From assembly GCF_017874475.1 (NCBI RefSeq), contig NZ_JAGGLO010000014.1, forward strand, positions 1 through 36,910: a stretch of DNA of 36,910 nt. Direction: 5' to 3'. Below, in pieces: positions 10,988 through 36,910 of the stretch. Both the position numbers and the translations under genes were made by a program. Position 1 is the first letter of the stretch. The number at the start of each line of letters is the position of its first letter. This stretch comes from Anaerococcus degeneri. Its GTDB lineage: Bacteria > Bacillota > Clostridia > Tissierellales > Peptoniphilaceae. The notes under the pieces were generated by a model that saw only the letters and a program-made list of their open reading frames with translations, was not told the DNA's origin and searched no databases.

Positions 10988-10989
10988 TT

Positions 10990-11143: not shown

Positions 11144-11944
11144 TTATTCATCTAGTATTTCAACTACCATGCTCTCTTTTAACTTAACCTCATCTTTTCT
11201 CTGTAGGTATTTCTCTATGTCAAATATATTTCTCTTGTCATAATCTTCAAGGAACTTATAATTCTTATGTTTGGTTATATCAAATTTATCTGAAAGAAAT
11301 GGTCTAACTCCTCTTAATTGGTAGATACATTTCCCACCATCCATTACAGTTATTTCATCTTGGCTCATTAATTCTTTTCCAGTTTTTTGATAGTTTAAAC
11401 CAAAACTCTTTTGATTCGATCTTGTTTCTGATGTATTATATAGGTCTATTGTTTCTTTTCCCAAACTTTCAGATAATTCTTTTAATGTTGTTCTTTCTTT
11501 GCCTCCTAAAAATAATGTAGAATCACAATTGCCAACTATGGTATCGGCATTATCTTTATAGATACTTTTTAGTTGTGATTGTGCTTGTAATATTATACAA
11601 GCTGATATTTCTCTACTTCTAATAGTTGCTATCAGCTTTTCAAACTTTGGAATTAAGCCGATATTTGCAAATTCATCAAGTAGGCATCTCACATGAATAG
11701 GAAGTCTTCCGCCATATTCGTCATCTGCTTTATCACATAATAGATTAAATAATTGTGAGTACATTATTGATACTACAAAGTTAAATGTATCATCTGTATC
11801 CGATATTATTACGAATAAAGCTGTTTTCTTTTCTCCAAGTGTATCAAGTTCCAGTTCATCTTCTTTCATTAAGTCCCTAAGTTCCTGAATATCAAATGGA
11901 GCAAGCCTTGCTCCACAGGATATAAGGATTGATTTGGCAGTTTT
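11144..11944 (-). pseudogene. virD4: virD4 coupling protein, 3' part (266 codons)
   Basis: The fragment reads KTAKSILISCGARLAPFDI, then ELELDTLGEKKTALFVIISD, the Walker B region VRCLLDEFANIG and the RecA-like motif CIILQAQSQL. These are diagnostic of the T4CP VirD4/TraG ATPase that brings the relaxosome to the channel. The reading frame continues upstream of the first Met to 11944. There it joins foreign sequence with a stop 4 codons further on (TGA at IME1's end). The matching upstream half ends at 26424 with KYKLAAG. Joining the two at the shared GA restores KLAAGKTAKS in frame. Confidence 0.9.
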
Positions 11945-11957
11945 TCCTGTAACAACT

Positions 11958-11963
11958 TGTCAA
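11958..11963 (-). promoter_or_regulatory. -35 half of a circle-joint promoter (IME1 end)
   Basis: TTGACA at 11963-11958 points outward from IME1. If the element circularises at GA, a 17-bp spacer then leads to TAGAAT (26419-26414) at the other end, facing tnpX1. A promoter formed by joined ends is known for tnpX of Tn4451/Tn4453. In the integrated state no -10 follows it in virD4. Confidence 0.6.
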
Positions 11964-11970
11964 GGACTTT

Positions 11971-12156
11971 CTAATCATTTTTATCGACTTTTTGATGTTT
12001 TTCTCTCTCCATTTCTCTAATCATTATGCGTTTTAATTTGTCTTGCATTGTTTCCGTTGCATTTTCATTAAAGTGAACAACAACCTCATAGGTTGCTTTA
12101 CCAATTTTCTTTATGGTTTTTGTTCCCGTATTCTGTTCATTTTTATTTTCGTGCAT
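11971..12156 (-). CDS. tnpW: TnpW-like transposon protein
   Basis: Sixty-one residues. The core KKIGKATYEVVVHFNENATE followed by TMQDKLKRIMIRE is the TnpW pattern (x-IG-x-TY-V-x-V-x-F, then ET-x-x-DKL). Tn4451-family elements carry it, function unknown. It lies 26 bp from the element end. AGGAGG precedes the ATG. A strong terminator hairpin stands between it and the upstream gene. A second TnpW-like gene is partly present at 36774-36910. Confidence 0.75.
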   Translation of the reverse strand: MHENKNEQNTGTKTIKKIGKATYEVVVHFNENATETMQDKLKRIMIREMEREKHQKVDKND

Positions 12157-12186
12157 ATATTTTTCCTCCTGTTTGTTTCGATAAAA

Positions 12187-12220
12187 AAGACGATTAGATT
12201 TTTAATTTTCTAATCGCCTT
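12187..12220 (-). terminator. Intrinsic terminator
   Basis: A 12-bp stem (12209-12220 with 12187-12198, one G-U pair in the minus-strand RNA) is followed by CTTTTTTAT. It ends the replisome-organizer transcript and stands about 30 bp before the tnpW start. Confidence 0.75.
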
Positions 12221-12314
12221 TAAAGTGTCATATTTATATTTTTATTATATCTGGCATACTTTGATACCTTTTTAGACTTAAAGTCTTTAATAGTGGCTTT
12301 CCACCTCTTTTTAT

Positions 12315-13049
12315 CTATAAAGATTCGCCTATGTCATAGTTCATTTTTTTATTTCCTCCTTGATGTCTTAGTTTTTCTTTGTCTTCTTCATACCATTTTA
12401 AGATTGTCGCATAGTGGTTTTGATAGGTCTTACCACTGCTTTCCATGTATCTGGATAGTTTATTTATCATTATTTCTGTGTGTGAGTTTAATTTTTCTTT
12501 TAGATTTTTATATTCTTCTTTGCTTAGCCTTACATTTTTGTATTCTCCATAAAAGATGGGGGTGGACTTTTTATCTTTTTCTATCTCTCCCTCTCTCTCT
12601 TTATCTATCTCTATATCTTTCTCTATCTCTATCTCTTGTCGGACATGGGTTGGACTCATTAAGGACAATGTCCTCTGTTTATTTTGTCTGTATCTTCTTT
12701 TTTTCTCTGCCCAGGCTGTTTCTGATCCGATTAAGTTTGGTATTTCAGTTAAATAGTATTCATCATTTTCTGTTACAACTTCTAATAAGCCTTGGTTGAT
12801 TAAATAATTAACTGTAACCATTACATCATCGTCTGTTTCATCTATGGTTAGTGCTAACTCTTTTATAAAATCACTTTCTACTCCGTCATAATATAGTTTG
12901 CCCTCATCTTTTAGACTTAGTAATAAAAGTTTGAGGTAGATTATCGTGTAGGTATCTCCTCCCGATATTCTCCTTAGCCTTTTTATCCTTTTGTCTGTGA
13001 AAAATTCTTCTTTTAATTTTATCCAATAATATCTTTTGTTTGTTGCCAT
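12315..13049 (-). CDS. Phage-type replisome organizer, N-terminal domain protein
   Basis: A 244-residue protein starting KRYYWIKLKEEFFTDKRIKR and containing GGDTYTIIYLKLLLLSLKDE, the pattern of the phage replisome organizer N-terminal family (winged helix, DNA binding). A basic linker and a Glu/Lys-rich repeat (about residues 145-160) precede a C-terminal region (YKNLKEKLNSHTEIMINKLS). Such proteins open origins and load helicase. In an IME it suggests replication of the excised circle. AAAGGAG lies before the ATG, and short direct repeats lie just upstream. Confidence 0.75.
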   Translation of the reverse strand: MATNKRYYWIKLKEEFFTDKRIKRLRRISGGDTYTIIYLKLLLLSLKDEGKLYYDGVESDFIKELALTIDETDDDVMVTVNYLINQGLLEVVTENDEYYLTEIPNLIGSETAWAEKKRRYRQNKQRTLSLMSPTHVRQEIEIEKDIEIDKEREGEIEKDKKSTPIFYGEYKNVRLSKEEYKNLKEKLNSHTEIMINKLSRYMESSGKTYQNHYATILKWYEEDKEKLRHQGGNKKMNYDIGESL

Positions 13050-13059
13050 ATCTGCTCCT

Positions 13060-13097
13060 TTCTTGATTTTCGATAATCGAAATTCTTGATTTCCGAT
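13060..13097. repeat. Two 15-bp direct repeats before the replisome organizer
   Basis: TTCTTGATTTTCGAT (13060-13074) and TTCTTGATTTCCGAT (13083-13097) differ at one base and repeat at 23 bp. A TCGAT/ATCGA palindrome falls between them. They overlap the leader of the replisome-organizer gene and could be its operator or part of an origin. Confidence 0.5.
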
Positions 13098-13145
13098 TTT
13101 CTTAAATTCTGGACTTCTGCTTTTCGGAAGTCTTGTTATTGTATT

Positions 13146-13174
13146 TAAGGGTGTAACTTTTCGTTACTCCCTTA
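13146..13174 (-). terminator. Hairpin at the 3' end of the pcfB-like gene
   Basis: TAAGGG and GTAAC pair with GTTAC and CCCTTA across one mismatch, loop TTTTC (13146-13157 with 13163-13174). It includes the stop codon of the pcfB-like gene. There is no T run, so termination is uncertain. Confidence 0.4.
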
Positions 13175-13699
13175 GATTTCTCTGGTCATATCTTTTTTGT
13201 TTGGTTTTACTTTTTCCTTTACTTTCCTTTTTACTTTTTCTTTTGCCTTATCCTTGTTCTTGGATAGGTCTTTGTATTTCTTTATTTGCTTTAGGATACT
13301 TTCCTTTTCTTTTTTATTTTCTTTGGCTATGACTTGCTTAAAGGCATATTCCATTACTTTTATATCTTTGGCTTGGAAAAATACTTCATAGTTTTTAGTT
13401 TCTTTGTTTTTCATTACTGAAAAACTTACTCCAAGTTTGTTTAGTTCTTTTTTTAAGTCTTTGAGGTCGCTTTGATCTATGCTTATATTTTCTAGTTGTC
13501 CTTTTTTATATAAGTCTTTTATTTTCATTTTATCTCCCATAAGACTTTTTAAGTTTCCATTTGCTTTTTCTAAGGTATCATTCATCTTTTTTCTTATTTC
13601 TTTTTCAAGATTGATTGATTCTTTTGCTGCCTTTATTGTGTATGTTATTATGGTTTGTGCTGCTTGACCTGCTTCTTTGCTTATTTCTTCGTTTATCAT
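13172..13699 (-). CDS. PcfB-like (DUF3801) relaxosome accessory protein
   Basis: A 175-residue protein. The centre (LKDLKKELNKLGVSFSVMKN, then NYEVFFQAKDIKVMEYAFKQ) matches DUF3801/PcfB, the factor that links relaxase to the VirD4 coupling protein in pCF10-type systems. The C-terminal 45 residues are Lys-rich. In ICEs pcfB normally stands just before virD4. Here the IME carries its own copy, which may adapt its relaxosome to a helper's coupling protein (inference). Confidence 0.7.
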   Translation of the reverse strand: MINEEISKEAGQAAQTIITYTIKAAKESINLEKEIRKKMNDTLEKANGNLKSLMGDKMKIKDLYKKGQLENISIDQSDLKDLKKELNKLGVSFSVMKNKETKNYEVFFQAKDIKVMEYAFKQVIAKENKKEKESILKQIKKYKDLSKNKDKAKEKVKRKVKEKVKPNKKDMTREI

Positions 13700-13730
13700 G
13701 TTTTCTCTCCTTTGTTTGAAATAAAATAGA

Positions 13731-13760
13731 GAAGTATAGGCTTTAATTTTTCTATACTTC
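13731..13760 (-). terminator. Hairpin before the pcfB-like gene
   Basis: A perfect 9-bp stem, GAAGTATAG with CTATACTTC, loop of 12. On the minus strand it is followed by CTCTATTTTATTT, a weak T tail. The 120 bp beyond it up to 13881 show no gene with a convincing start. Confidence 0.5.
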
Positions 13761-13881
13761 CCTTTGCTTGTTTTTATTTTATTGTTCTTGGTGGTGGAAT
13801 GCTTTATTTTGATGTTTTTATATCTTTCTTAGGTCTTTGTACCTTTTATTGTTTTTCTGCTCTTATTTTGCTTTTCCACCT

Positions 13882-14055
13882 TTAGTAGTTTGTGTGTGTT
13901 CTTTTGTCTGATAGATAGTTTTTCATGTTGGAATATATAATCTGTATTTCCTCATTGTTCATTGATTTTATTTCTTCTGTGCTTTTGTAGGTTTTATATG
14001 TTCCATCTTGATCTGCTTTTATGAGTTCATTTATTATCTCTTGCCTTTTATTCAT
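13882..14055 (-). CDS. Small hypothetical protein (57 aa)
   Basis: An uninterrupted 57-codon frame begins MNKRQEIINELIKADQDGTY and ends THTNY. GAGGAGG lies 8 bp before the ATG, and a TATAAT hexamer lies about 30 bp further up, just after the relaxase gene. The product is hydrophilic and helical with no recognised family. It occupies the post-relaxase position that holds cargo genes in IME2 and IME3. Confidence 0.55.
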   Translation of the reverse strand: MNKRQEIINELIKADQDGTYKTYKSTEEIKSMNNEEIQIIYSNMKNYLSDKRTHTNY

Positions 14056-14128
14056 CTCTATTACCTCCTCGATCTGCCTTTATTTTCTTGGTCATATTAT
14101 AGCTTGGATAAGATATTTTTACCAGGTC

Positions 14129-15769
14129 TTATCTTTCTTGATTTTTGTAATAGTCTTTAGTCATTTGTCTTTTTTTATTAAAACTATCACTATCTTGCTT
14201 ATACTCTTTTATCTTTTCTATGATACTTTCTTTTTCTCCTCTCTTGATTGCCTTGTCAATTTCAATACTTAGGTCTATGCCATAATCATCATTTACAGTC
14301 TTAGCTGCATATTTGATATGATTGATATTTTCGTATTCTTCCTTAATAGATTGAGCTTGTTTATTTAGCTTAGTAATTTCAATTTCAAGACTTTGTATAT
14401 CGCTTTGCCAATTTTTAGATTTAATAGCTGATGAGCCTGTTATTTTTTCAAGGATTGCCCTTGCTCTTTTATATTTATCTATCTCGTCTTTATGGGAATT
14501 GTAAAAGCTGTCTTTGAATAGGGATTTACTGTTCCATTCCTCAAAGACTTTTTTGTTATCCTTGATGATGTCCGCATAGGCAAAGCATTTATTTAAGTTT
14601 TCTATTCTTGTGGTTTTCGCCTTAATGTCTTGACTAATCTTCTTATTTTGGGATTGTAATGTGCTTATCTTTTCTTGTAGGTCGGCTATGGTTTTAAGAT
14701 TGTTGTCTTTCAGATATATTCTTGCTTTGGAAAATCGTCTTAGGTCTGCACCTATCTTTTTGTTGCTTGCATAGGGATTTAACTTTCTTGCTTTTTCTCC
14801 CTGTAAGTCATAATAAATACTGATGTACTCATAGAGATTAAAGAGTTCCGCCTTGTTCTCATATTCTTCTTTTTTCTCCTGTTTGTATTCATCATATTTT
14901 ACTTGCAGACTTCCAAGTAACGAGCCTATCCAAGACGTAAGTTTGGATAGCTCCTCTTTTAATTTTCTAAATTCTAAATTCAAGGCGATGATTTTTCTGT
15001 TTTGGTTTCCTCTCTCTGTCTGTATGCCTTTTTTCTCCATCTGATAACTGCTTGTGCCTAAATGAATTTGCGGGAGTTCTTCTCTGCCTTGTTCTTTAAA
15101 GGTGCGTGGATCTATCCTTTTATTTATGTTGTTTCTTGCCAAGTATTCGTTTGCTTTCTTTGAAAAGTTTTCTCTCCACTCTTTTGCTTTGTCAGGTTCA
15201 TTCCAATCGTTCAAATTTACTTTTCTTGATTTATAGTTTCCACTTTTCAGTTTTATCTTTTCTCCGTTTTCATCAAGGATATATTTTTTTCTGCATTTCG
15301 GTTTCCAATTCCCTTTTTTGTCTATTTCTCTAAGGGTAAGTAGGATATGGGCGTGTGGTTGTTCTTCATGATCGCTTGCCATAGGATTATGAATATTACA
15401 GTCTGCTATCATACCTTTAGAAGTAAAGTTTTCTTCTATAAATTCGCTGATTAACTTTATTCTGTCCTGTTCATTTAATTCTCTTGGAAGTGTAAAGAGC
15501 AGATTTCTTGCAAGTTGTGAATTTTTACTTTTTTCGATTTTCTCAACTTCATTCCATAGGTATTCTCTGTTTGAAAACTCTTTCGGGATATGTTCCGGCA
15601 GAAATATTTTTGAGAATACAAGGTCTTCTTTTTTAGAATAGTCATGTGTTTTTCCATAGTATTCATCTTGTAATTTATCTCTTGCATTGTATGCAGCTTT
15701 TGCAATCACGCTATGCCCTTTTGACCTTGCCACAATATCTACATGGGTATGCAAACTTTTGATTTCCAT
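14129..15769 (-). CDS. MobA/MobL (MobQ) relaxase of IME1
   Basis: A 546-residue relaxase that would nick oriT and lead the strand into the recipient. The N-terminal 200 residues hold the MobA/MobL signatures: VIAKAAYNARDKL (candidate catalytic Tyr), NREYLWNEVEKIEKSKNSQL, and the metal-binding PHAHILLTLREI. The C-terminal half is coiled coil. AAAGGAGG precedes the ATG. It is related to but clearly distinct from the two relaxases at 28310 and 34026, which resemble each other much more. An oriT-like region lies directly upstream. Confidence 0.9.
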   Translation of the reverse strand: MEIKSLHTHVDIVARSKGHSVIAKAAYNARDKLQDEYYGKTHDYSKKEDLVFSKIFLPEHIPKEFSNREYLWNEVEKIEKSKNSQLARNLLFTLPRELNEQDRIKLISEFIEENFTSKGMIADCNIHNPMASDHEEQPHAHILLTLREIDKKGNWKPKCRKKYILDENGEKIKLKSGNYKSRKVNLNDWNEPDKAKEWRENFSKKANEYLARNNINKRIDPRTFKEQGREELPQIHLGTSSYQMEKKGIQTERGNQNRKIIALNLEFRKLKEELSKLTSWIGSLLGSLQVKYDEYKQEKKEEYENKAELFNLYEYISIYYDLQGEKARKLNPYASNKKIGADLRRFSKARIYLKDNNLKTIADLQEKISTLQSQNKKISQDIKAKTTRIENLNKCFAYADIIKDNKKVFEEWNSKSLFKDSFYNSHKDEIDKYKRARAILEKITGSSAIKSKNWQSDIQSLEIEITKLNKQAQSIKEEYENINHIKYAAKTVNDDYGIDLSIEIDKAIKRGEKESIIEKIKEYKQDSDSFNKKRQMTKDYYKNQER

Positions 15770-15824
15770 TGTCTTTTCCTCCTTTATCTGTTTTCAATTT
15801 TGGGATTTTACTATCCTAATGTTC

Positions 15825-15890
15825 AGGTCGTATCTTCGCTCCCTTTTTCAAAGGGCGCAAAGATACACCGTTTGACTACGGTGCTTTGCG
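15825..15890 (-). other. oriT candidate of IME1 (IncQ/RSF1010-like)
   Basis: On the minus strand an inverted repeat CACCGT/ACGGTG (15883-15866) is followed at once by GTATCTTTGCGCCCTTT. The layout, inverted repeat then TGCGCCCT, is that of MobQ nick regions (TAAGTGCGCCCT in the IncQ family). Beside it lies a long hairpin, GTATCTT-CGC paired with GCG-AAGATAC. The rest of the 15770-16083 gap holds further GC-rich hairpins (for example GGGGG/CCCCC at 15957-15972) and no gene. Confidence 0.65.
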
Positions 15891-16083
15891 TTCCTGCGGA
15901 AAGCTTATAGCTCCGCTAAGGAAACGAAAACGCTAAAGCATTTTTATTTGTTCAAGGGGGCTACTCCCCCTTAGACCCCTGTGAACTTTGTTTTTTGTAG
16001 ATTTTTCAAATCCACAAAAAAGCAAAGTGTTAAAATGTTCTCACTTTGCTCCATCTCAGTTTCTAATACATTTTCTGTTTTCC

Positions 16084-16458
16084 TTATTCTTCCTCTGTCA
16101 GTTCTTCAAAATCATCATTTGCATTTTCCTCTTTAAGATTTGGATTTTCTTCTAAAGAGATTTCTTTTTCTTTTAAATGAATTTCTGTAAGTTCTTTTAG
16201 CTTTTCTCTATTTCGATTATCGGAAAGTACATAATCTAAAAAGGCATAGATTAAATCATTGTCGGTACTTTCTTCTGCTCCGGTTATCTGTTTTTCAAAT
16301 TTCTCAAACACGCCTCCTTTTTCTACTTTTCGTTTCGTGTCCGCCTTTCTTTTTAGCTGTGATTTCTTTTGTCTTAGTTGCTTAATTTTGTTTTCTACCT
16401 GTTCTTTTTTCTTAGTTTCTTTTTCCAACTGGCTCATTACATTTTCTAACTCTTTCAT
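16084..16458 (-). CDS. DUF3847 family protein (relaxosome accessory candidate)
   Basis: A 124-residue protein: a coiled coil over residues 1-45 (Lys/Gln/Glu-rich), then RKVEKGGVFEKFEKQI and a helical segment, and a very acidic tail. This matches DUF3847, whose gene regularly stands before MobA/MobL relaxase genes, as it does three times in this window. A MobC-like role at oriT is likely but not shown. GGAGG lies 7 bp before the ATG. Confidence 0.7.
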   Translation of the reverse strand: MKELENVMSQLEKETKKKEQVENKIKQLRQKKSQLKRKADTKRKVEKGGVFEKFEKQITGAEESTDNDLIYAFLDYVLSDNRNREKLKELTEIHLKEKEISLEENPNLKEENANDDFEELTEEE

Positions 16459-16495
16459 TTTTCATTCCTCCATTTCAATATTGTTGTGTTCCAAA

Positions 16496-16522
16496 CAAAG
16501 AAAGGCTAAGCACCTTTCTTTG
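16496..16522 (-). terminator. Hairpin between sigma-like gene and DUF3847 gene
   Basis: A perfect 10-bp stem, CAAAGAAAGG with CCTTTCTTTG, loop of 7. There is no T run on either side, so it may stabilise or process RNA rather than terminate. Confidence 0.4.
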
Positions 16523-16544
16523 ATACTTAACCTTTCATCATTTT

Positions 16545-16961
16545 TTAGATTTTATCTTCTAAAATCTTTCTTAGTTTTTCTAAAATTTGATCCCTCCTTT
16601 GTCCGATTGCCTGATGTGTAACTTTCTCTTTTCTGCTGATTGACCTAAGACTTTCTTCTCTGTAGAAGATGGCTTCCATTAACTCTCTTTCTTCTTTTGT
16701 CAGTGTAGCTAATGCCTTATGCAGTTCTTCAATTTGCATTTTGACTTCTACAATTTTTTCTAAGTCTATTTTTTCATCTATGATGTTATCTACAAAGTGT
16801 CCATCATGATCTAATGATGAAAATGGAATAACTCCATACTTGCAATCCTTTTTCTGAAGATATTTTTCATGCTCTGTTATCTTCCAATAGGCTTTGTAGA
16901 CTTCTTCACTTATGGGTATAGCTTCCCCTTTGACATAAAGGTAATATTCCTTATTAGGCAT
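16545..16961 (-). CDS. Sigma-70 region 4-like DNA-binding protein
   Basis: A 138-residue protein. The N-terminus (YYLYVKGEAIPISEEVYKAYW) is typical of short mobile-element sigma-like proteins. The C-terminal third (ALATLTKEERELMEAIFYRE, then SLRSISRKEKVTHQAIGQRR) is a region 4 helix-turn-helix. There is no recognisable region 2, so it is more likely a regulator of element genes than a full sigma factor. AAGGAGG precedes the ATG. It leads the DUF3847-relaxase group and is separated from the iron genes by a terminator. Confidence 0.75.
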   Translation of the reverse strand: MPNKEYYLYVKGEAIPISEEVYKAYWKITEHEKYLQKKDCKYGVIPFSSLDHDGHFVDNIIDEKIDLEKIVEVKMQIEELHKALATLTKEERELMEAIFYREESLRSISRKEKVTHQAIGQRRDQILEKLRKILEDKI

Positions 16962-17013
16962 TGTGTTATCCTCCTTTTTAAGTTCTCTGTTTTGCTTTTT
17001 GAGAATAAAAAAG

Positions 17014-17046
17014 GAGGACTTCTACACTTTGACGTAAAAAGTCCTC
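17014..17046 (-). terminator. Terminator after the iron-uptake operon
   Basis: GAGGACTT (17046-17039) pairs with AAGTCCTC (17021-17014) on the minus strand, followed by CTTTTTTATT. It separates the feo/ABC block from the mobilization genes. Confidence 0.75.
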
Positions 17047-17078
17047 TCGGCTTAAAAACTAATATTTTATATGATTTT

Positions 17079-17183
17079 CTATTTTGTTGTTTCTGGTAAA
17101 GTGTTATTGCTACGTGTAAGCAATTCCAAGCATAAAAAATGATAAATATATCTTATGTGAATAACAAAATTTAGTGTTTTCAT
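17079..17183 (-). CDS. Possible 34-aa small membrane peptide downstream of feoC
   Basis: ATG with GGAGG 8 bp upstream opens a 34-codon frame, MKTLNFVIHIRYIYHFLCLE and a polar end. One hydrophobic helix is possible. It lies between feoC and the operon terminator. No family is recognised, and it may be chance. Confidence 0.35.
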   Translation of the reverse strand: MKTLNFVIHIRYIYHFLCLELLTRSNNTLPETTK

Positions 17184-17247
17184 TATTTATCCCTCCATTG
17201 CTTAGCTACATTTTAACCTCCATTCTTTGATTCTGTACTTAACCAAA

Positions 17248-17481
17248 CTACTCTTTTACAATCCAAATATCATCTTGATTAACAACACAATTCGAGCATC
17301 CCGAACATTGACTTTGGCATTTACTTGTTGCAGACCTTTTAGTTTTTACCAAATATCCATTATTTTCGAGATATTCAATTTTCATTTTTACACTATCTAA
17401 ATCCTCACCTGTCAGTTCAACAAGTTCTTGCAAAGTGCAAGTCTTTTTCTTTTTCAATACTTCTAATAGTTGTATAAGCAT
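17248..17481 (-). CDS. feoC: FeoC-like winged-helix protein with Cys cluster
   Basis: Seventy-seven residues from the ATG at 17481, chosen because AAGGTG lies 8 bp upstream. A GTG three codons earlier overlaps that site. A winged-helix half (LLEVLKKKKTCTLQELVEL) is followed by a Cys cluster, CQSQCSGCSNC, able to bind an Fe-S cluster as in FeoC. It lies 12 bp after feoB. It may regulate the operon or protect FeoB. The Cys spacing is tighter than in enterobacterial FeoC. Confidence 0.75.
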   Translation of the reverse strand: MLIQLLEVLKKKKTCTLQELVELTGEDLDSVKMKIEYLENNGYLVKTKRSATSKCQSQCSGCSNCVVNQDDIWIVKE

Positions 17482-17493
17482 ACTTATCACACC

Positions 17494-19515: not shown

Positions 19516-19518
19516 ATC

Positions 19519-26419: not shown

Positions 26420-26423
26420 TTAC

Positions 26424-28261: not shown

Positions 28262-28285
28262 AGCCCCCTTTCTATCTTTTTTAAT

Positions 28286-28294
28286 ATTATACCA
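28286..28294 (-). promoter_or_regulatory. Cassette promoter, extended -10 (eamA-type gene)
   Basis: TGGTATAAT on the minus strand, 16 bp beyond the relaxase stop. The same extended -10 word occurs before the cargo genes at 30977 and 33944, and a variant before 36699. Confidence 0.65.
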
Positions 28295-28309
28295 TTTTTT
28301 CACTTAGTT

Positions 28310-29770: not shown

Positions 29771-29834
29771 AGTAAAAAACCTCCTTTCCATTTTCTGATA
29801 TGGTTATGGTGGAGATAGATAGAACTTCCTAAAA

Positions 29835-29860
29835 AAATCGGATAGCTTTTTATCCGATTT
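29835..29860 (-). terminator. Terminator between oriT and relaxase gene (IME2)
   Basis: AAATCGGATA pairs with TATCCGATTT over 10 bp, then TTTTTTT on the minus strand. It lies about 65 bp before the relaxase start, so it may attenuate relaxase expression. The same hairpin recurs in IME3. Confidence 0.7.
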
Positions 29861-29969
29861 CTTTTGGGAAGTACACAAGGGGTAGGAAATTTATTTCCGT
29901 AGGGGAGTGTAGCTCCCCTGTATCAGCGTTAGCTGATATGCTCTCTGCAAGAGCCTTCGGAGAACGCAC

Positions 29970-29998
29970 ACACCCTTTAGGGTGTATAAGTGCGCCCT
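29970..29998 (+). other. oriT of IME2 with IncQ-type nick core
   Basis: The inverted repeat ACACCCT/AGGGTGT (29970-29976, 29979-29985) is followed by ATAAGTGCGCCCT (core at 29987-29998). This equals the nick core TAAGTGCGCCCT known for RSF1010/R1162-type MobQ oriTs; cutting there falls between G and C of GCG/CCC. A second short repeat, CCCTTG/CAAGGG, follows. The core is on the plus strand, opposite to the relaxase gene. The remaining 29771-29969 stretch holds GC-rich hairpins and no gene. Confidence 0.8.
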
Positions 29999-30011
29999 TG
30001 TCAACAAGGGA

Positions 30012-30332
30012 CTATTTCTCTATCTCTGTTTCTTCCTCTTGTATTTCTGTAATTTTGTTTTCGCTTTGTTCTCGCTTCTCTATGATTTTTAAGATTTTTT
30101 GATTGATTGCTTCTTTGATAGTTGAAAATGAGATTAGTTGATAGAATTCATCTTTTGTAAAATCCTTGCTTTCGGTAAAGATACTTTCAAAGACTGCTCC
30201 TTTTTCATAAAGCCTTTTATCTCTCTTTTTTCTTTCTTCCTGTTTCTGCTGACTGATGAGCTTTTTTCTTTTGTTTTGTAACTGCTTAATTTCTTCTTCT
30301 GCCATTAAAATTTTTTCATCTATATTTTTCAT
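30012..30332 (-). CDS. DUF3847 family protein of IME2
   Basis: A 106-residue protein from the ATG at 30332, preceded by AGAAAGGA; an ATG 11 codons earlier lacks a ribosome site. It has an N-terminal coiled coil, a basic stretch QKQEERKKRDKRLYEKGAVF, then ESIFTESKDFTKDEFYQLI. It stands just before oriT and relaxase, the usual place of an accessory nicking protein. Close relative of the product at 35756. Confidence 0.75.
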   Translation of the reverse strand: MKNIDEKILMAEEEIKQLQNKRKKLISQQKQEERKKRDKRLYEKGAVFESIFTESKDFTKDEFYQLISFSTIKEAINQKILKIIEKREQSENKITEIQEEETEIEK

Positions 30333-30370
30333 TTTCTGTTTTCCTTTCTTCGTAATTTTGAGCAAAGAAA

Positions 30371-30402
30371 AAACAGTAAACCATTCTTTTTGTTTACTGT
30401 TT
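30371..30402 (-). terminator. Cargo-cassette terminator 2 (after clbS-like gene)
   Basis: AAACAGTAAAC pairs with GTTTACTGTTT over 11 bp and is followed by a T run on the minus strand. It is the same core as the other cassette terminators. Confidence 0.8.
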
Positions 30403-30458
30403 CGTAAGTTGATATATTATTACTTGTATTTAATTATTTTACTTCGACAAACTGAGAT

Positions 30459-30977
30459 TTATAGTACTATCTTCTTCCATTTTCTGATTTTTGTTCTAAA
30501 AGATCCAAAAGGTGCAACCGTATTTACATGAATAAACTTATATACCTCCCATACTGCTATTTTAGTCGCTTCATCAGCCCATTTTTTCATATGCGGTTTA
30601 AACAATTCTTCCTCACTTAACGAATCAATCATTGCATAGATAGAATTAATATTTTCATTTAATTTGGATTTCAACTCTTGTAAGGATAAATGAGCGTAAG
30701 TATCCGTAAACCACTGATATAATTCACCAAGTTGATTCCATTTAAATTCGTCCGATGGTGTCTTTACTTTAAGTCCCTTTCTTTCATCTTTCTCCCATTT
30801 AAGAAGTAAGGTTGTCCATCCCACTTGATAAGCAAGGTTTTCTGCGGGAGTTCTATCAACTTCATCAACTCTCTTATCTTTTAAGGTTTCTGGTATATTA
30901 TCAAATTCTGAAATATATTTTTTAAATGTTTTATTTATTTCAGTCTTGAGTTCTTCTTTATTTTCGTATGTTCGCAA
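30459..30977 (-). CDS. ClbS/DfsB-family four-helix-bundle protein
   Basis: A 172-residue protein, start TTG with GGAGGTGA upstream. KRVDEVDRTPAENLAYQVGW and WEVYKFIHVNTVAPFGSFRT are features of the ClbS/DfsB (DUF1706) family. ClbS protects its host from colibactin, while most members are uncharacterised. It sits between tnpX2 and the DUF3847 gene as a cassette with its own TATAAT promoter and terminator. A protective role against a small toxic compound is inference. Confidence 0.8.
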   Translation of the reverse strand: MRTYENKEELKTEINKTFKKYISEFDNIPETLKDKRVDEVDRTPAENLAYQVGWTTLLLKWEKDERKGLKVKTPSDEFKWNQLGELYQWFTDTYAHLSLQELKSKLNENINSIYAMIDSLSEEELFKPHMKKWADEATKIAVWEVYKFIHVNTVAPFGSFRTKIRKWKKIVL

Positions 30978-31025
30978 AAAATCACCTCCACAACTTCTTA
31001 TTTTTCTCTCTGAATAATTAATAAT

Positions 31026-31034
31026 ATTATACCA
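31026..31034 (-). promoter_or_regulatory. Cassette promoter, extended -10 (clbS-like gene)
   Basis: TGGTATAAT, directly after the tnpX2 stop. It shares AAATGGTATAATATTA with the eamA-type cassette. Confidence 0.65.
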
Positions 31035-31037
31035 TTT

Positions 31038-32708
31038 TTAAGCCAGTTTTTCTATCTCCTCTTTCTGTGGCACTTGACAGTTGCCTATAAAGTTAAAATA
31101 AACATCAACCTGTTGTTTTCTGTTTTTGCCTTTTCTTCCCCCTGTCGCTTCGTGGACTACTACTTTTTCAATATACTCGTTTATCATTGGTACTGTCAGT
31201 TCCTCAATATCTGTATACTTTTCTATCATTTTTAGAAATTTATCGGTGTCAACTTTCCTCTGATGATAGCTTTCTATTTCTTGTTCAAAATACTGTATTT
31301 GTTTCTCTAAATCTTGTTGCTCCATATCATAGGTATTAAACAATCTATCAAAGTGTTTTACAGGAATTTTCCCAAGTGCATGGTCTTCATATAGCTTTGT
31401 AATAAGGGTTGTTAGTTCTGCATTTCTTGATGACAGTTTTTCTAACTTCTCTTTATCTCCTTGATACTTTTCTTCTTTTTTTTCATCGGATAATCTATTC
31501 ATCACTTTTAGAAATTCTTGCTTTTCGTCTTTGGCAAAGTCGGTTATTTCTTTGATTGATTTTAATAGAATTTCATTCACTGTTTTTACTTTAATATAGT
31601 GCATACTGCAAGTGCCTTTTCTGTGTCTATAATGTTGACATACAAAAGAGTAATCACTATCATATTTCTTTTCTTTGTGTTCTGCCGGCTCTCTGTAACT
31701 TAACTTTCCTCCACAATCTGAACAGATTAAAAGTCCTGTAAAGGGGTGTGATGTTGTTCCATACTTTGGACTTCTTCTCACTGTTTTTCTTAACCTTTGT
31801 GCGTTATTCCATGTTTCTTCATCAATGATTGCTTCATGGGTGTTTTTGAAGATAATGAGTTCATCTTCTTTCGCCTTTCTTCGTTTTTTGGTTTTGTAAT
31901 CAAGGCATATTGTTTTACCAAGTACGGTGTGTCCCATATATTCTTGCTTTTCTAAGATATAGCCTACTGTGGTCGGTGTCCAAAAATACGGGTCTTCTAT
32001 TCCTCTTTTCTTGGAGCTATGATTATTTTCGGGATAATGTATTTCTGCATAGGCTGATGGGATAAGGACTTTATCTTTGGTTAGTATATCTGCTATCTGT
32101 GTTACTCCATATCCCTCTATTACAAGTCTGTAAATGCGTTTTACGACCTTTGAACTCTCTTTATCGACAAGTAGCTCCTGTTTGTTCTTAGGGTTTCTAT
32201 AATAGCCGTATGGTACGCTTGGTGATACTCTTTTACCCTCTTCCATTCTTGCTCTGAAGATGGATTGTATTTTTCTTGATGTATCTCTTGCATACCATTC
32301 GTTCATGATATTTAGAAATGGGGTAAAGTCGCTTTCTGCTTGTTTCTCACTATCTATTCCGTTATTGATGGCGATAAATCTTACTCCCTTTTCTTTGAAA
32401 AGTATTTCGGTGTAAAAGCCTACTTTGAGGTAATCTCTGCCAAACCTACTCATATCTTTTACTATCACAGTAGATACTTTGTTTTCTTCTACTGCTTTTA
32501 TCATCTTTTGAAATCCCTCTCTATCAAAGGTTGTTCCGCTTACTCCATCATCGGTATAGTGATAAATATTTATAAAGCCGTTTCTTTTTGCATAGCTTTC
32601 AAGTAGCTGCTTTTGATTGGTGATGGAATTACTTTCTCCTTGCATTTCATCATCACGACTTAAACGCTCATAAAGGGCTGTTTGTCCTGTTCTTTTCATA
32701 TTTGACAC
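31038..32708 (-). CDS. tnpX: TnpX-like large serine recombinase of IME2
   Basis: A 556-residue recombinase. The resolvase domain has ALYERLSRDDEMQGESNS (catalytic Ser) and VKDMSRFGRDYLK. The zinc ribbon is LICSDCGGKLSY with a later CQHYRHRKGTCSM. A coiled coil and DUF4368 (PMINEYIEKVVVHEA, then VYFNFIGNCQVP) follow. The start is GTG at 32708 after AAAGGAGG. It resembles TnpX1 across its length but differs clearly and is about 60 residues shorter at the end. It sits 55 bp from the GA junction. Confidence 0.92.
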   Translation of the reverse strand: MSNMKRTGQTALYERLSRDDEMQGESNSITNQKQLLESYAKRNGFINIYHYTDDGVSGTTFDREGFQKMIKAVEENKVSTVIVKDMSRFGRDYLKVGFYTEILFKEKGVRFIAINNGIDSEKQAESDFTPFLNIMNEWYARDTSRKIQSIFRARMEEGKRVSPSVPYGYYRNPKNKQELLVDKESSKVVKRIYRLVIEGYGVTQIADILTKDKVLIPSAYAEIHYPENNHSSKKRGIEDPYFWTPTTVGYILEKQEYMGHTVLGKTICLDYKTKKRRKAKEDELIIFKNTHEAIIDEETWNNAQRLRKTVRRSPKYGTTSHPFTGLLICSDCGGKLSYREPAEHKEKKYDSDYSFVCQHYRHRKGTCSMHYIKVKTVNEILLKSIKEITDFAKDEKQEFLKVMNRLSDEKKEEKYQGDKEKLEKLSSRNAELTTLITKLYEDHALGKIPVKHFDRLFNTYDMEQQDLEKQIQYFEQEIESYHQRKVDTDKFLKMIEKYTDIEELTVPMINEYIEKVVVHEATGGRKGKNRKQQVDVYFNFIGNCQVPQKEEIEKLA

Positions 32709-32762
32709 GAGAATTACCTCCTTTCCAAGTTTTTATTATTTTCTCTGTCCCTATGAGGTTAA

Positions 32763-32987
32763 TCCTTTAGGATCTGTTACACAATATGAAGAGTGCATTT
32801 GCATTAGGTTCGGTTTTACATAAAATCTTGTCTTTCCTGAACCAGAACCACCTATAACAAGTACATTTTTGTTACGAGCATAATTTGGATTTGCAGGTCT
32901 GCCATTCATAGTTAATCGTTCTGTTTGAGTAAGCAAAATATTGTTTTGGAACTTTTCATCCACATACGGCTCTATATCTTTTCTCGT
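32763..32987 (-). pseudogene. virD4: Duplicated virD4 fragment (75 codons)
   Basis: It codes TRKDIEPYV through the Walker A motif to CVTDPKG. The stretch appears base-for-base the same as 26853-27077, while the elements on either side differ. It ends at AAAGGA, where IME2 starts, and begins after CCTGGGGA, where IME3 ends. Its length, 225 bp, is a whole number of codons. Confidence 0.88.
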
Positions 32988-33069
32988 TCCCCAGGAAGCG
33001 TTTTGTCAAGTATCTTTTTATATTTATGGACGCTTTTTCTATAAAGATTTTTAGCTTTTAGACAAGAAA

Positions 33070-33101
33070 AAAACAGTAAACCTTTTTTGATTTACTGTTT
33101 T
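33070..33101 (-). terminator. Cargo-cassette terminator 3 (after methyltransferase gene)
   Basis: AAAACAGTAAA pairs with TTTACTGTTTT over 11 bp, with a T run on the minus strand. Same core as the other cassette terminators. Confidence 0.8.
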
Positions 33102-33140
33102 GCTGTTAGTTTTATTAAAATTTATTAGTTAGATATTGGG

Positions 33141-33944
33141 TTAGAAACTCAAATGTATAATTTTTGTTCTGTTTAACTTATCTGCAAAATACATATATAT
33201 TCTTGTTTTTAATTTCAATCCCTTACAATGCTTTAATGCTCCATCAAAAAAGCCTGTAACTCCTACTAACCCTGTATTCGTGCAGCTTGCAAATTCTTTT
33301 GGGTCATCTACGCTAAAATACATTTGTGCGTCTTCATTTCCCGTTTGTTTTACATATTTATTAGCAAGCTCTAATCCCTTGGAATTTGTTGCGTCAAATA
33401 TCAATTCTCCGTTAGGAATCAATGATTTCATGCCCTTAATCATATCTACAATTTTTTCTTTATCAAAATATTGATATACTCCTGCAACTACAATCATTGT
33501 CGGCAAAGAAGTATCTATTTCTTTTATCCAATCAAGAGTAAACATATCCCCTGCTATCAATCTTTCATTATCGGCATTTCCTAATACTTTTTTTCTTAGT
33601 ATTATGACATCCGGCAAATCGATTTGATAGAAATTAACTTTAACATTTTTTATGCGATTATATGCTGTTTCCAATCCTGCTCCTAAAAAGACAATATTAC
33701 ATTCCTTGTTTTTTTCGATGAAACTAATAATTTTTTTGTCCATCGTTTGTTGTCTGCAAACACTTGCCATATAAAAATATTCAGTAGTATTACTTTCTAT
33801 ACTGTTTGTGGGTATATGTTGTTTTAAGGATAATGCTTTTTCATCATAGAAAAAATCAGGAAATTTTTCAGACGCATAAACTCTTGCTATAAGAGGAATA
33901 TATAGAGTATCTGCAACACCACTAAGCAACTCATTTTTGTTCAT
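33141..33944 (-). CDS. SAM-dependent methyltransferase, LCM-like
   Basis: About 267 residues from the ATG at 33944 (AGGAGG 9 bp upstream); an ATG two codons earlier is closer than usual. The fold is a class I methyltransferase of the leucine carboxyl methyltransferase-like group: N-terminal LLSGVADTLYIPLIARVYAS, SAM-binding NIVFLGAGLETAYNRI, acidic residue in NFYQIDLPDVI, and VVAGVYQYFD. Substrate unknown; relatives act on small molecules and polyketides as well as proteins. It fills the cargo slot after the relaxase gene. Confidence 0.75.
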   Translation of the reverse strand: MNKNELLSGVADTLYIPLIARVYASEKFPDFFYDEKALSLKQHIPTNSIESNTTEYFYMASVCRQQTMDKKIISFIEKNKECNIVFLGAGLETAYNRIKNVKVNFYQIDLPDVIILRKKVLGNADNERLIAGDMFTLDWIKEIDTSLPTMIVVAGVYQYFDKEKIVDMIKGMKSLIPNGELIFDATNSKGLELANKYVKQTGNEDAQMYFSVDDPKEFASCTNTGLVGVTGFFDGALKHCKGLKLKTRIYMYFADKLNRTKIIHLSF

Positions 33945-34001
33945 CTCCATGTCCCTCCTTTCTCATTTTATTTTGCAAGTTATGTGAAACTAATTATTTT
34001 C

Positions 34002-34010
34002 ATTATACCA
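34002..34010 (-). promoter_or_regulatory. Cassette promoter, extended -10 (methyltransferase gene)
   Basis: TGGTATAAT lies 16 bp beyond the relaxase stop, the same distance as in IME2. The flanking bases after it differ, so divergence begins at or near the -10. Confidence 0.65.
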
Positions 34011-34025
34011 CTTTCCCACTTAGTA

Positions 34026-35486
34026 TTATAGGTCTAACTCATTCCTCTTTACCTGTGATAGTTGCTTTTCTCGTTCCTGTAACTCCTCTATACAGGTCTT
34101 AACTTTTTCAGCTTGTGCCACTTCTTCTCGTATCTCTAATATTTTATTGTATAGGCTCTTTTTCTCTTTCTTCAAAGCGGCAACTTCTGTTTCCCATTTG
34201 GATATATTCAAGGTCTTACTTTCTCCTAAATGTTCTTTCAAATATCTCTTTGCACTTTCAAATAAAATAATCTCTGCTGTATGTTCGTTGTAAAAATCTT
34301 CCTGTCTGCTTCTCTTTGTCTTGGTATAGGCTTTGTAGGTGTCCTTGTACTTCAAATATTTTTCTGATTGGTCTATGAGTTGTGTTTTTTCATCAATCTT
34401 CTTCTCGGTATCTTTTAAGGCTCGTGTTGTCTTGTAATTCTTATCTCGTAAATTAGTAATGCTTTCTTTTAATTGATTGATATTTGTAATGTTTTTCTCT
34501 TGTAATAGCTGATAACTTTCAATATATTTCTCTAAGTCTGCATTATTCTCATCTGCATTTTTACGGATAAGATTTTCAAAGATTGACAATAAATTTTCTT
34601 TGGGTGGGAGGGTGGATTTTATATTTTCGCTCTCTGCTTTTTCTTCTTTTCCTATTCCTCTTATCCAATTTAGCAAGGCTTTTATTCTTCTTGAAATTTC
34701 TCTTAAAATCATATTTTGATGTTTGATTTCTCTATTGATATTTCCTCTGTCTGTAGCTATACCTTTCTTTTCCATTTGGGTTGCTGATACTCCTAAATGA
34801 ATGGTCGGTATTTGTTCTATGCCTTGTCTTTGGTAAGAACGATGATCCACTTTGTCCTGTATGCTATTTTCTTCAAGATACTTGTTTGTAATATCTGCCC
34901 ATGCTTTTCTCCATTCTTCTGCTTTGTCTTGTTCGTTCCAATCGGTTGTATTTATTTTTCTTGTTTTGTAATTGCCATTTTTTAGTTTTACCTTTTCTCC
35001 GTTTTCGTCAAGGATATATTCCTTTTTTGATTTTGCTCCCCATGTTGTATCTTCGTTTAATGGTCGCATGGTAAGTAGGATATGACAATGTGGATTTCCA
35101 TCATTTTTATCATGTAGGGCAATATCGGCACACATACCTACTTTTACAAAATTTTCTTTTACATATTCTCGTACAAGATTTATTTGTTTCTCTCGGTCTA
35201 ATTCTTTGGGTAAGGCTACTTCAATTTCTCTTGCAAGTTGTGAGTTTTTACTTTTTTCTATTTTTTCAACACTATTCCATAATGTCCCTCTATCTAAAAA
35301 TTCCTGTGGTGCATTTTGTGGTAAAAGAATTTCTGTATGTGTTATTCCTCCTTTTCTTGTAAAGTCATGGACTATACCGTCATATTCGTTTTTTATCTTT
35401 TCGCCACTGCGATAAGCGGAAGCTGCTACTGCACTTTTGCCTTTACCTCTTGAAATAATCTTTATACAAAGATGATATATCGCCAT
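34026..35486 (-). CDS. MobA/MobL (MobQ) relaxase of IME3
   Basis: A 486-residue relaxase from the ATG at 35486 after AAAGGAGG. Motifs as in the IME2 enzyme: AVAASAYRSGEKIKNE, KIEKSKNSQLAREI and NPHCHILLTMRPL. Its length equals the IME2 relaxase. The N-terminal 220 residues are almost unchanged, while the coiled-coil part carries most substitutions (for example TLPPKENLLSIFENLIRKNA against TLPLKENLQSIFENLIRENA). Confidence 0.92.
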   Translation of the reverse strand: MAIYHLCIKIISRGKGKSAVAASAYRSGEKIKNEYDGIVHDFTRKGGITHTEILLPQNAPQEFLDRGTLWNSVEKIEKSKNSQLAREIEVALPKELDREKQINLVREYVKENFVKVGMCADIALHDKNDGNPHCHILLTMRPLNEDTTWGAKSKKEYILDENGEKVKLKNGNYKTRKINTTDWNEQDKAEEWRKAWADITNKYLEENSIQDKVDHRSYQRQGIEQIPTIHLGVSATQMEKKGIATDRGNINREIKHQNMILREISRRIKALLNWIRGIGKEEKAESENIKSTLPPKENLLSIFENLIRKNADENNADLEKYIESYQLLQEKNITNINQLKESITNLRDKNYKTTRALKDTEKKIDEKTQLIDQSEKYLKYKDTYKAYTKTKRSRQEDFYNEHTAEIILFESAKRYLKEHLGESKTLNISKWETEVAALKKEKKSLYNKILEIREEVAQAEKVKTCIEELQEREKQLSQVKRNELDL

Positions 35487-35550
35487 AAAAGAAAACCTCC
35501 TTTCCATTTTTCGGTATGGTTATAGTGGCGATAGATAAGACTTCCTAAAG

Positions 35551-35576
35551 AAATCGGATTGCTTTTTATCCGATTT
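35551..35576 (-). terminator. Terminator between oriT and relaxase gene (IME3)
   Basis: AAATCGGAT pairs with ATCCGATTT. The T tail on the minus strand is interrupted (TTTCTTTAGG), so it is weaker than the IME2 copy. Confidence 0.6.
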
Positions 35577-35686
35577 CTTTTGGGAAGTACACAAGGGGTA
35601 GGAAATTTATTTCCGTAGGGGAATGTAGTTCCCCTGTATCAGCGTAAGCTGATATGCCCTCTGCTAAGAGCCTTCGGAGAACGCGC

Positions 35687-35715
35687 ACACCTGTTAAGGT
35701 GTATATGTGCGCCCT
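35687..35715 (+). other. oriT of IME3 with IncQ-type nick core
   Basis: Inverted repeat ACACCT/AGGTGT (35687-35692, 35697-35702) followed by TATGTGCGCCCT (35704-35715), one base from the IME2 core. Same place and strand as in IME2. The rest of 35487-35755 holds GC-rich hairpins and no gene. Confidence 0.78.
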
Positions 35716-35755
35716 TGTAAACAAGGGACTATTCATCTATGTCCGTTTCGTCCTC

Positions 35756-36049
35756 TTAGCTTTCTATATTTTGATTTTCTGTTTCTTCTCTGCTTTCTAT
35801 AATTTTTAGTATTTTGAGATTTGCTTCTTCCTTACGAATTAAAGATGTAATCAACTGATAAAATTCATCTTTGGTTAGATTTTTACTTTCGGTAAAGATA
35901 CTTTCAAAGACTGCTCCTTTTTCATATATTCTTTTATCTCTCTTTTTTCTTTCTTCCTGTTTCTGCTGACTGATGAGCTTTTTTCTTTTGTTTTGTAACT
36001 GCTTGATTTCTTCATCTGCCATTAAAATTTTTTCTTCTATGTTTTTCAT
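35756..36049 (-). CDS. DUF3847 family protein of IME3
   Basis: A 97-residue protein from the ATG at 36049, with AGAGGA upstream. It shares QKQEERKKRDKRIYEKGAVF and FTESKNLTKDEFYQLI with the IME2 protein, but its C-terminus diverges and ends earlier. Accessory role at oriT inferred from position. Confidence 0.75.
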   Translation of the reverse strand: MKNIEEKILMADEEIKQLQNKRKKLISQQKQEERKKRDKRIYEKGAVFESIFTESKNLTKDEFYQLITSLIRKEEANLKILKIIESREETENQNIES

Positions 36050-36087
36050 TTTCTCATTTCCTCTCTTTCTAATTTTGAGCAAAGAAA

Positions 36088-36117
36088 AAACAGTAAACCT
36101 TTTTTGATTTACTGTTT
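36088..36117 (-). terminator. Cargo-cassette terminator 4 (after membrane-protein gene)
   Basis: AAACAGTAAA pairs with TTTACTGTTT, followed by a T run on the minus strand. Same core and same position before DUF3847 as terminator 2 in IME2. Confidence 0.8.
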
Positions 36118-36165
36118 CTGTGGTAATTTTTATTAAATTGTTAGTTCTACAAACTGGGATTTGTT

Positions 36166-36699
36166 TTAGTTATCTCCCATTTTCTTTAATTCCATATGTA
36201 ATACACAAGCAAATACCATCTCAATAATACATGCCGCAACAGCAACCGTTGTGCCGTTTAATGCACATCCTAAAATCAAAGAAATCATCGGAATGGAAAT
36301 TGCAGCAACTGTATATCCCTTTGATTGATACAACCATGAATATGGAAATAAATGTGCTCCAAACACCATAGCGTATACCATAATCATCTTTTCCGGAACC
36401 GCACTAAACACCCACATAACGATTAATAAATAAACCATTTGATTTAAGGTGAAAATGAAGCCTAATTGTCCAAGTGGATTTTGTTTTGAAAAGATATCCA
36501 CCTTTATAAGTTTACCAATTAGCCAAGACAGCGGTAATAATGGGCATGAACAGCAAAACACCAATAAATTTTTCATATTCATATTGATATCTAAAATTGA
36601 CACAAGTACTATCAGAAGCCATATAATCACCGATGCCATGATAAATGGTAATCCTTTTTTCTGCTGAATTGCAATTTCTTTTCTTAATTTATCCATCAT
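36166..36699 (-). CDS. Small polytopic membrane protein, unknown function
   Basis: About 177 residues with five hydrophobic segments (for example FIMASVIIWLLIVLVSIL, MVYLLIVMWVFSA, AAISIPMISLILGCAL). It resembles a family I recall as DUF7010, function unknown. Starts at 36699 or 36696, since an upstream in-frame GTG overlaps GGAGGAG. It is the cargo cassette between the TnpW-like gene and DUF3847. Confidence 0.65.
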   Translation of the reverse strand: MMDKLRKEIAIQQKKGLPFIMASVIIWLLIVLVSILDINMNMKNLLVFCCSCPLLPLSWLIGKLIKVDIFSKQNPLGQLGFIFTLNQMVYLLIVMWVFSAVPEKMIMVYAMVFGAHLFPYSWLYQSKGYTVAAISIPMISLILGCALNGTTVAVAACIIEMVFACVLHMELKKMGDN

Positions 36700-36743
36700 T
36701 TTCTCCTCCACAAATTCAAATTTGTTTATCTATATTGACTAAT

Positions 36744-36752
36744 ATTATAGCA
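36744..36752 (-). promoter_or_regulatory. Cassette promoter, extended -10 (membrane-protein gene)
   Basis: TGCTATAAT, 22 bp beyond the TnpW-like stop. It shares AAATGnTATAATATTA with the IME2 cassette promoters. Confidence 0.6.
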
Positions 36753-36773
36753 TTTTTTAGTTATTTTTTCTAC

Positions 36774-36910
36774 TCACTCGCTACTATCTCCTTTAGAATG
36801 TATTACCTTGAATAACTTATCTTGAAATGTTTCCTTGCTCTTTTTATCAAAATATATCTCTGTTACAAAGGTCTTTCCATTTATCTTCTTTGTAAGAATA
36901 CCATCAGGCT
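36774..36910 (-). CDS. tnpW: TnpW-like transposon protein, partial
   Basis: The last 44 codons are visible; the start is beyond the right edge. LTKKINGKTFVTEIYFDKKS and ETFQDKLFKVI follow the TnpW pattern. It is diverged from the copy at 11971 and lies in the middle of its element rather than at the end. Confidence 0.7.
   Translation of the reverse strand, partial: PDGILTKKINGKTFVTEIYFDKKSKETFQDKLFKVIHSKGDSSE

Follow-up and report, generated by a model that had tools for sequence, protein, structure and literature searches.

Integrative and mobilizable elements (IMEs) inserted in traG, the gene for the coupling protein VirD4, of Tn5252-type streptococcal integrative and conjugative elements (ICEs), including at two sites in one gene, are described in PMC5357655 and PMC5704250, and traG, maff2, snf2, and rumA are reported as locations of IMEs of this class (PMC13214566). 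According to a proposal by Coluzzi and colleagues, induction of conjugation prompts these IMEs to excise (PMC5357655), and a plasmid with a disrupted virD4-like gene is also reported, with no mention of an IME in the accessible part of that source (PMC9673590). The locus analyzed in the present study is a 36,910-bp stretch of DNA from Anaerococcus degeneri (NZ_JAGGLO010000014.1; referred to as the window), corresponding to the entire contig C14 of a draft genome (2.17 Mb in 31 contigs), in which pieces of virD4 are separated by three IMEs (IME-A, IME-B, and IME-C). It is fairly likely that this arrangement is explained by three insertion sites in virD4, with a different clade of large serine integrases using each of them, together with homologous recombination between IMEs.

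Insertions in virD4 fell at Trp127 (s1), Lys202 (s2), and Gly346 (s3) (numbering of P0002, an intact frame of 612 residues), and the large serine integrases at these sites are referred to as the rec1, recB, and recA clades, respectively. The minus-strand order in the window, from high to low coordinates, was the right part of IME-C, a 227-bp virD4 piece, IME-B, a 659-bp virD4 piece, IME-A, the virD4 C-terminal piece, and ICE transfer genes. The host element encoded the VirD4 coupling protein and PrgI/VirB4/VirB6-type transfer genes (Pfam), only part of the ICE being on the contig, and its name, "Tn5252 superfamily", was taken from the literature. Three virD4 pieces had been read beforehand from the sequence alone (referred to as the original prediction), and each of them (T4SS-DNA_transf) was confirmed at its predicted place, on the minus strand. 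The features on which the argument depends are as follows.

11144..11947, minus strand: C-terminal piece of virD4, extending from the s3 core through the stop codon, allele type T18 (PF12696, PF02534; nearest L059/L029 at 97%)
11946..11947, minus strand: s3 core GG, right end of IME-A (junction comparison)
11948..26424, minus strand: IME-A, in s3 (Gly346) (Pfam; recombinase 91-97% to others at s3)
24474..26327, minus strand: recA-clade large serine recombinase of IME-A (s3 clade) (Resolvase, Recombinase, Zn-ribbon, DUF4368; tree)
26425..27083, minus strand: middle piece of virD4, spanning s1 to s3 and with an empty s2 (AA core at 26857-26858), allele type T8 (alignment, typing)
27084..32766, minus strand: IME-B, a hybrid with an s2-type left end and recB recombinase and an s1-type right end (ends, alignment)
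29923..29943, no strand: identity switch of IME-B (approximate); sequence to the right near-identical to that of rec1-type elements in four other genomes
31038..32708, minus strand: recB-clade large serine recombinase of IME-B (s2 clade) (Pfam; tree)
32767..32993, minus strand: virD4 s1-s2 piece, identical to 26857-27083 (227/227 bases)
32994..36910, minus strand: right part of IME-C, with an s1-type right end, running off the contig before its recombinase (Pfam, ends)

Recombinases were sampled from 130 genomes of the family, of which 53 gave a match and had the regions around matches fetched, and from 398 genomes of the phylum, of which 21 gave a match; broken virD4 genes were fetched from named genomes (38 searched). 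Matches of less than 350 aa or with more than two stops were excluded, and the removal of two contig-edge recombinases and two duplicate loci before tree construction reduced 134 rows to 130. Among the 130 recombinases in the tree, 83 were located in virD4 (16 at s1, 20 at s2, and 47 at s3), and the other 47 were located elsewhere. The three-way site label changed twice on the tree, which is the minimum possible, and therefore no clade was seen in the site of another clade. One clade per site was found in 83/83 sampled virD4 insertions, from Peptoniphilaceae, streptococci, Lachnospiraceae, and others, including recombinases of low identity: 73-74% for rec1 (G213, Lachnospiraceae isolate), 44, 48, and 61% for recB (Lachnospiraceae isolate, Anaerotignum, and Dorea), and 57 and 59% for recA (G064 and Dorea). 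Insertions were present at s1 in Streptococcus anginosus J4206, at s3 in S. pseudoporcinus and Atopobacter, and at both s2 and s3 in Peptostreptococcus anaerobius. Selection of the sites for extreme DNA conservation was rejected: 41-bp segments around them ranked at percentiles 62, 34, and 73 of 1796 (P 0.27), with the segment centers for s2 and s3 placed one codon too far downstream. At the protein level, s3 was at the 98th percentile of conservation, s1 at the 49th, and s2 at the 42nd. As a separate observation, virD4 of two other Clostridia was broken near residue 240-263 (L387, with a start at residue 263, and L388, from Pseudoflavonifractor and Eisenbergiella genomes), and no matching recombinase of the rec1, recB, or recA clades was found there; a group II intron may be responsible.

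When the left and right junctions were compared in codon register, the bases common to both were TGGG at s1, AAAGG(A) at s2, and CAGG(A) at s3. TGGG was common in 15 of the 16 true pairs at s1, and only TG in one distant pair (2/18 pairs, in G126 and G128, were false motif matches). At s2, AA at codon positions 1-2 was common in 19/20 true pairs, mostly within AAAGG or longer and narrowing to AA in distant relatives; the exception, G064, has T as the first base of its left end and fits only given a later base change, and together with two false motif matches (G020 and Anaerotignum) it made up the 3/22 pairs without a common AA. GG was common in 20/20 pairs at s3. Assuming that the core is fixed within a clade, the cores are most likely TG (s1), AA (s2), and GG (s3). 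The original prediction had assigned a GA crossover, as for TnpX/TndX, and the common junction bases excluded this at all three sites: the 15 pattern-found left ends at s1, all in virD4, read TGGGTT; the base after GG at s2 is that of the element at left junctions and that of the host at right junctions; and at s3, the two ends of single loci differ at A (G000 C17 and Dorea). The accompanying claim of a GGA codon at every break stood for the virD4-side ends in the window (GCA-GGA, AAA-GGA, and TGG-GGA), but failed for s1 left ends, which read TGG-GTT. On the other hand, the predicted common codon phase was borne out, since all cores occupied positions 1-2 of the codons for Trp127, Lys202, and Gly346; the chance of phase agreement alone is 1 in 9. 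If the central dinucleotides differ between the sites, as is most likely, it cannot be assumed that any two ends can pair in frame.

Allele typing was based on 88 distinct intact virD4 genes, and two alleles (T8 / T18) were found to be joined across IME-A in the window. Among the 98 loci compared, the nearest intact gene was L042 (93%) for the middle piece and L059/L029 (97%) for the C-terminal piece, and the lists of the six nearest intact genes (93-88% and 97-95%, respectively) did not overlap. The T8 and T18 C-terminal parts in the source genome were 79% alike. Because the s1-s2 stretch was present twice and the C-terminal piece belonged to another allele, the history originally read from the window, of one virD4 gene cut three times, was rejected. 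The source genome contained three virD4 copies (C14, C16, and C17), each occupied, and no intact virD4 of the same kind was found in it, while a distant TraG-type gene was located on C23. The last bases of the contig, on the IME-C side, matched the end of contig C16, the assembly being broken there by a repeat. A virD4 5' part ending at Trp-Gly, which had been expected to the right of the contig, was found in kind: contigs C15 and C5, candidates for the right continuation, end in SARW-G (junction between W and G) followed by an s1 left end.

IME-A had a matched s3 pair of ends, IME-B had an s2-type left and an s1-type right end, and the left end of IME-C was outside the contig. Among 50 left-right pairs found by end patterns, IME-B was the sole mismatch (19 s3, 17 s2, and 13 s1 pairs were matched). 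A rec1-type element of 5,998 bp was near-unchanged (2-3 differences) in four genomes (G042, G003, G140, and G116), and comparison of IME-B with that of G042 revealed 113 differences in ~0.5 kb before element position 2900 and 3 in ~2.8 kb after it. This switch (window ~29.92-29.94 kb) lay 130-150 bp before the relaxase gene, in a module common to both kinds of element. No exact s2-type right end was found elsewhere in the source assembly.

Two further hybrids, from recB to an s1 end and from recA to an s2 end, were found with virD4 s1-s2 and s2-s3 pieces in a 21.6-kb composite of G067, a one-contig genome. The composite lay outside any virD4 gene, was bounded by a matched s2 pair, and consisted of a non-virD4 flank, recB with an s1 right end, virD4 s1-s2, recB with an s2 right end, virD4 s2-s3, recA with an s2 right end, and a non-virD4 flank. 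The first hybrid was missed by the end pattern (its s1 end is CTCTCTGGGG) and was read by eye, and the third element (recA to the s2 end) spanned two fetched regions. Beyond the two pieces, virD4 in G067 was represented by one 67% match to residues 468-607. In G066, a relative of G067, the same two flanks enclosed a decayed 1.5-kb recB element (L341 3853-5400; the corresponding loci of G067 are L232/L282); the composite might therefore have been built up within an element already in place, and not acquired as a unit.

Changes in allele type were also more frequent across occupied sites: where both neighboring parts were typable, the type changed across 5/48 occupied sites versus 4/293 free sites (P 0.0037), the latter comprising 2/87 in broken loci and 2/206 in intact genes. 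Reciprocal exchange would leave a pattern such as that at s2 in G144, where, of two loci on one 1.2-Mb contig, one switched from T18 to T16 and the other from T16 to T18.

The frequency of occupation was judged from a survey of the genus only, because the other regions had been fetched for recombinases or broken virD4. In 31 Anaerococcus genomes, 41 virD4 loci with the C-terminal part were tallied by hand (omitting one decayed copy at G046 C1:1024417, short fragments, and two 41-42% relatives): 21 were occupied at one or more of the three sites, 18 intact, 1 frameshifted, and 1 split by contig ends, and the 17 insertions at s3 were confirmed by junction sequence. None of the 38 VirB4-like loci used as a control carried an insertion (36 were full length, one had an apparent frameshift split, and one ran into masked bases). 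The repeated choice of virD4 (21/41 versus 0/38 loci), thus, reflects a real target preference, in agreement with the original prediction. An occupied copy was present in 16/31 genomes, and 7 of these 16 had an intact copy as well. Three recombinases were stacked in one virD4 in G126, with four gene parts of one allele type on one contig; the same was seen in G016 and G144, where the final gene part lay beyond the contig.

In the explanation that we favor, virD4 of Tn5252-like ICEs offers three separate attachment sites, Trp127 to rec1, Lys202 to recB, and Gly346 to recA, which IMEs enter independently, so that one virD4 can hold up to three of them. Homologous recombination between IMEs would follow, because the mobilization module is homologous among them and more than one ICE resides in a cell. 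In the window, a recB element would have contributed the left half of IME-B and a rec1-type element its right half, the two meeting near 29.93 kb: the order seen, with s1-s2 doubled (IME-C, s1-s2, and IME-B) and both right-hand ends of s1 type, would result from a single crossover in which one ICE carried s1 and s2 elements as a stack and the other ICE an s1 element. An occupied virD4 would yield no whole VirD4, and transfer via that coupling protein should, therefore, be off. The s1 integrase could remove either IME-C by itself or a single composite running from IME-C through IME-B, whereas IME-B, lacking a partner end that matches, is predicted not to excise on its own. Transfer could also be served by an intact ICE present in the same cell, as in 7/16 occupied genomes.

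Several observations weigh against this explanation. IME-C and IME-B were only 89% alike in the shared module and carried different cargo; a simple sister exchange fits less well for this reason, and the 89% likeness means that two different s1 elements or a later replacement must be assumed. The draft contig ends in a repeat and no s1 recombinase gene was found in the source assembly, so that missing contigs could hide the parental s2 end. Moreover, 8 close recA/recB members (at least 86%) lay outside virD4, with left flanks ending in AGG in 7/7 read; some allele switches other than those of G144 joined close types; and within broken loci alone, the excess at occupied sites (5/48 versus 2/87 free; P 0.097) was not significant.

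The history of the original prediction, in which one virD4 of one ICE acquired three IMEs one after another, each at a GGA codon of the same phase and with freely pairing ends, agrees with the single direction of the three elements and three pieces, with the codon phase, and with the clean triple stack in G126. However, it is contradicted by the doubled s1-s2 stretch, from which only an assembly error could rescue it, and the other allele of the C-terminal piece, the junction cores other than GA, and the unlike ends of IME-B also argue against it; we consider it very improbable. Misjoining of short reads from two IMEs or ICEs, in the shared module (IME-B) and in IME-A, would account for the arrangement as an artefact, and a draft genome with contig ends in repeats, the missing s1 recombinase, and a mobilization module common to the elements speak for it; nevertheless, the exact s2-type right end expected of the parental recB element was absent elsewhere in the assembly, the same kind of hybrid was present on the single contig of G067, and the opposite allele switches of G144 were on one 1.2-Mb contig, so that an artefact appears unlikely. 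The action of integrase alone, by which IME-C in s1 and a recB element in s2 would have excised together in a single circle with s1-s2 and then integrated into s1 of another virD4, yields the same order of parts with the right ends of IME-C and IME-B both abutting s1, but predicts an s2-type right end on IME-B, where the observed end was of s1 type, and the identity switch falls inside the mobilization module. This process is possible solely as a later step, and there is little reason to expect that it produced the window.

Beyond the window, homologous recombination between IMEs at the three sites leads to a more tentative idea: stacked IMEs might form a recombination platform in virD4, which swaps the halves of co-resident ICEs and breeds composites that carry copied virD4 as portable homology and spread as units, with ends belonging to one integrase on either side. 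IME stacks may in this way drive exchange between ICEs, which bears on the diversification of conjugative elements in human-associated anaerobes and streptococci. With their three mapped sites in a single conserved gene, the three serine integrases constitute a natural set, and the question of how elements that need a coupling protein can afford to break it becomes testable.

The remaining genes of the window, all assigned by Pfam, are as follows.

1..11026, minus strand: ICE genes downstream of virD4 (PrgI, TrbL/VirB6, VirB4-like ATPase, NlpC/P60, DNA methylase, Abi_2, and others)
12315-13049: IME-A, replisome organiser
13172-13699: IME-A, DUF3801
14129-15769: IME-A, MobA/MobL relaxase
16545-16961: IME-A, sigma-like gene
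17494-19515: IME-A, FeoB
19730-21484 and 21471-23237: IME-A, two ABC transporters
23451-24425, plus strand: IME-A, AraC-type regulator
27251-28303: IME-B, EamA-type transporter
28310-29791: IME-B, MobA/MobL
30459-30977: IME-B, DUF1706
33141-33950: IME-C, LCM-type methyltransferase
34026-35507: IME-C, MobA/MobL
36166-36711: IME-C, DUF7010

As predicted, each of the three elements possessed its own relaxase (MobA/MobL), and no mating-pore gene (VirB4, VirB6, or PrgI) was found among the proteins searched in 11948-36910, small frames being outside the search. Large serine recombinase genes were within the contig for IME-A and IME-B; that of IME-C would lie beyond the contig end, and complete s1 elements in other genomes carried rec1. 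In IME-A, FeoB, the two ABC half-transporters, and the AraC-type regulator (17494-24425) form a possible iron-related cargo set. The ABC pair scored 166-186 bits against tet(46) in NCBIfam (cut-offs 1250); no resistance family was above the cut-off among 30 window proteins in Pfam or among 10 of them (8 cargo proteins and 2 recombinases) in NCBIfam, with no dedicated resistance library used. DUF1706, the LCM-type methyltransferase, and DUF7010 represent cargo of the two small IMEs (IME-B and IME-C), and genes of this kind seem to be exchanged among their small relatives. A terminator-like repeat of 45-80 bp was located at the borders between cargo and module (27146-27191, 30356-30403, 33048-33130, and 36066-36146; C16 and C22 also), and might help cargo exchange by homologous recombination. 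Within the ICE, an abiF RNA match (11009-11045, minus strand; 38.1 bits versus a gathering threshold of 37) lay directly upstream of the Abi_2 protein gene (10124-11026, minus strand), which is downstream of the virD4 stop codon; these are a candidate abortive-infection unit.

The closest described systems, in the accessible parts of the sources, are the streptococcal traG IMEs, including IME_Sco1050_traG_site1 and _site2, in which a large serine integrase and a relaxase are similarly present inside the coupling-protein gene, with more than one site per gene and one specificity mostly corresponding to one integrase family (PMC5357655, PMC5704250). The present system differs from these in its three sites (of which the published S1 and S2 may be two) with one clade each, triple stacks, and a hybrid with duplicated virD4. 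In Clostridioides difficile R20291, three mobilizable elements (Tn6104, Tn6105, and Tn6106) are located in one conjugative element, Tn6103, two of them in one open reading frame; a 2-bp repeat and circular form were demonstrated for Tn6104, and the Tn6103 elements share ABC transporters, sigma-like genes, and mobA/mobL with IME-A, whereas duplicated target pieces or hybrid ends, as in the window, are not mentioned in the accessible text (PMC3158075). The IME_SNF2/IME_PPI hybrid of Streptococcus suis likewise arose from recombination between IMEs located in genes of one ICE family, but involved two different target genes, and the part of the report consulted mentions no captured target fragment (PMC7168690). 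Tn4451/TnpX also combines a large serine recombinase with a 2-bp crossover (PMC5704250, PMC3158075); according to these accounts Tn4451 uses numerous GA sites, in contrast to one main site per clade and cores other than GA here. The literature searched, as far as its text was accessible, contained no rule of one clade for one site over three sites, no such occupancy figure, and no captured or duplicated virD4 pieces. Thus, IMEs in traG/virD4 were already known, and the three-site rule, the stacks, and the fragment-carrying hybrids look, within the literature searched, to be new.

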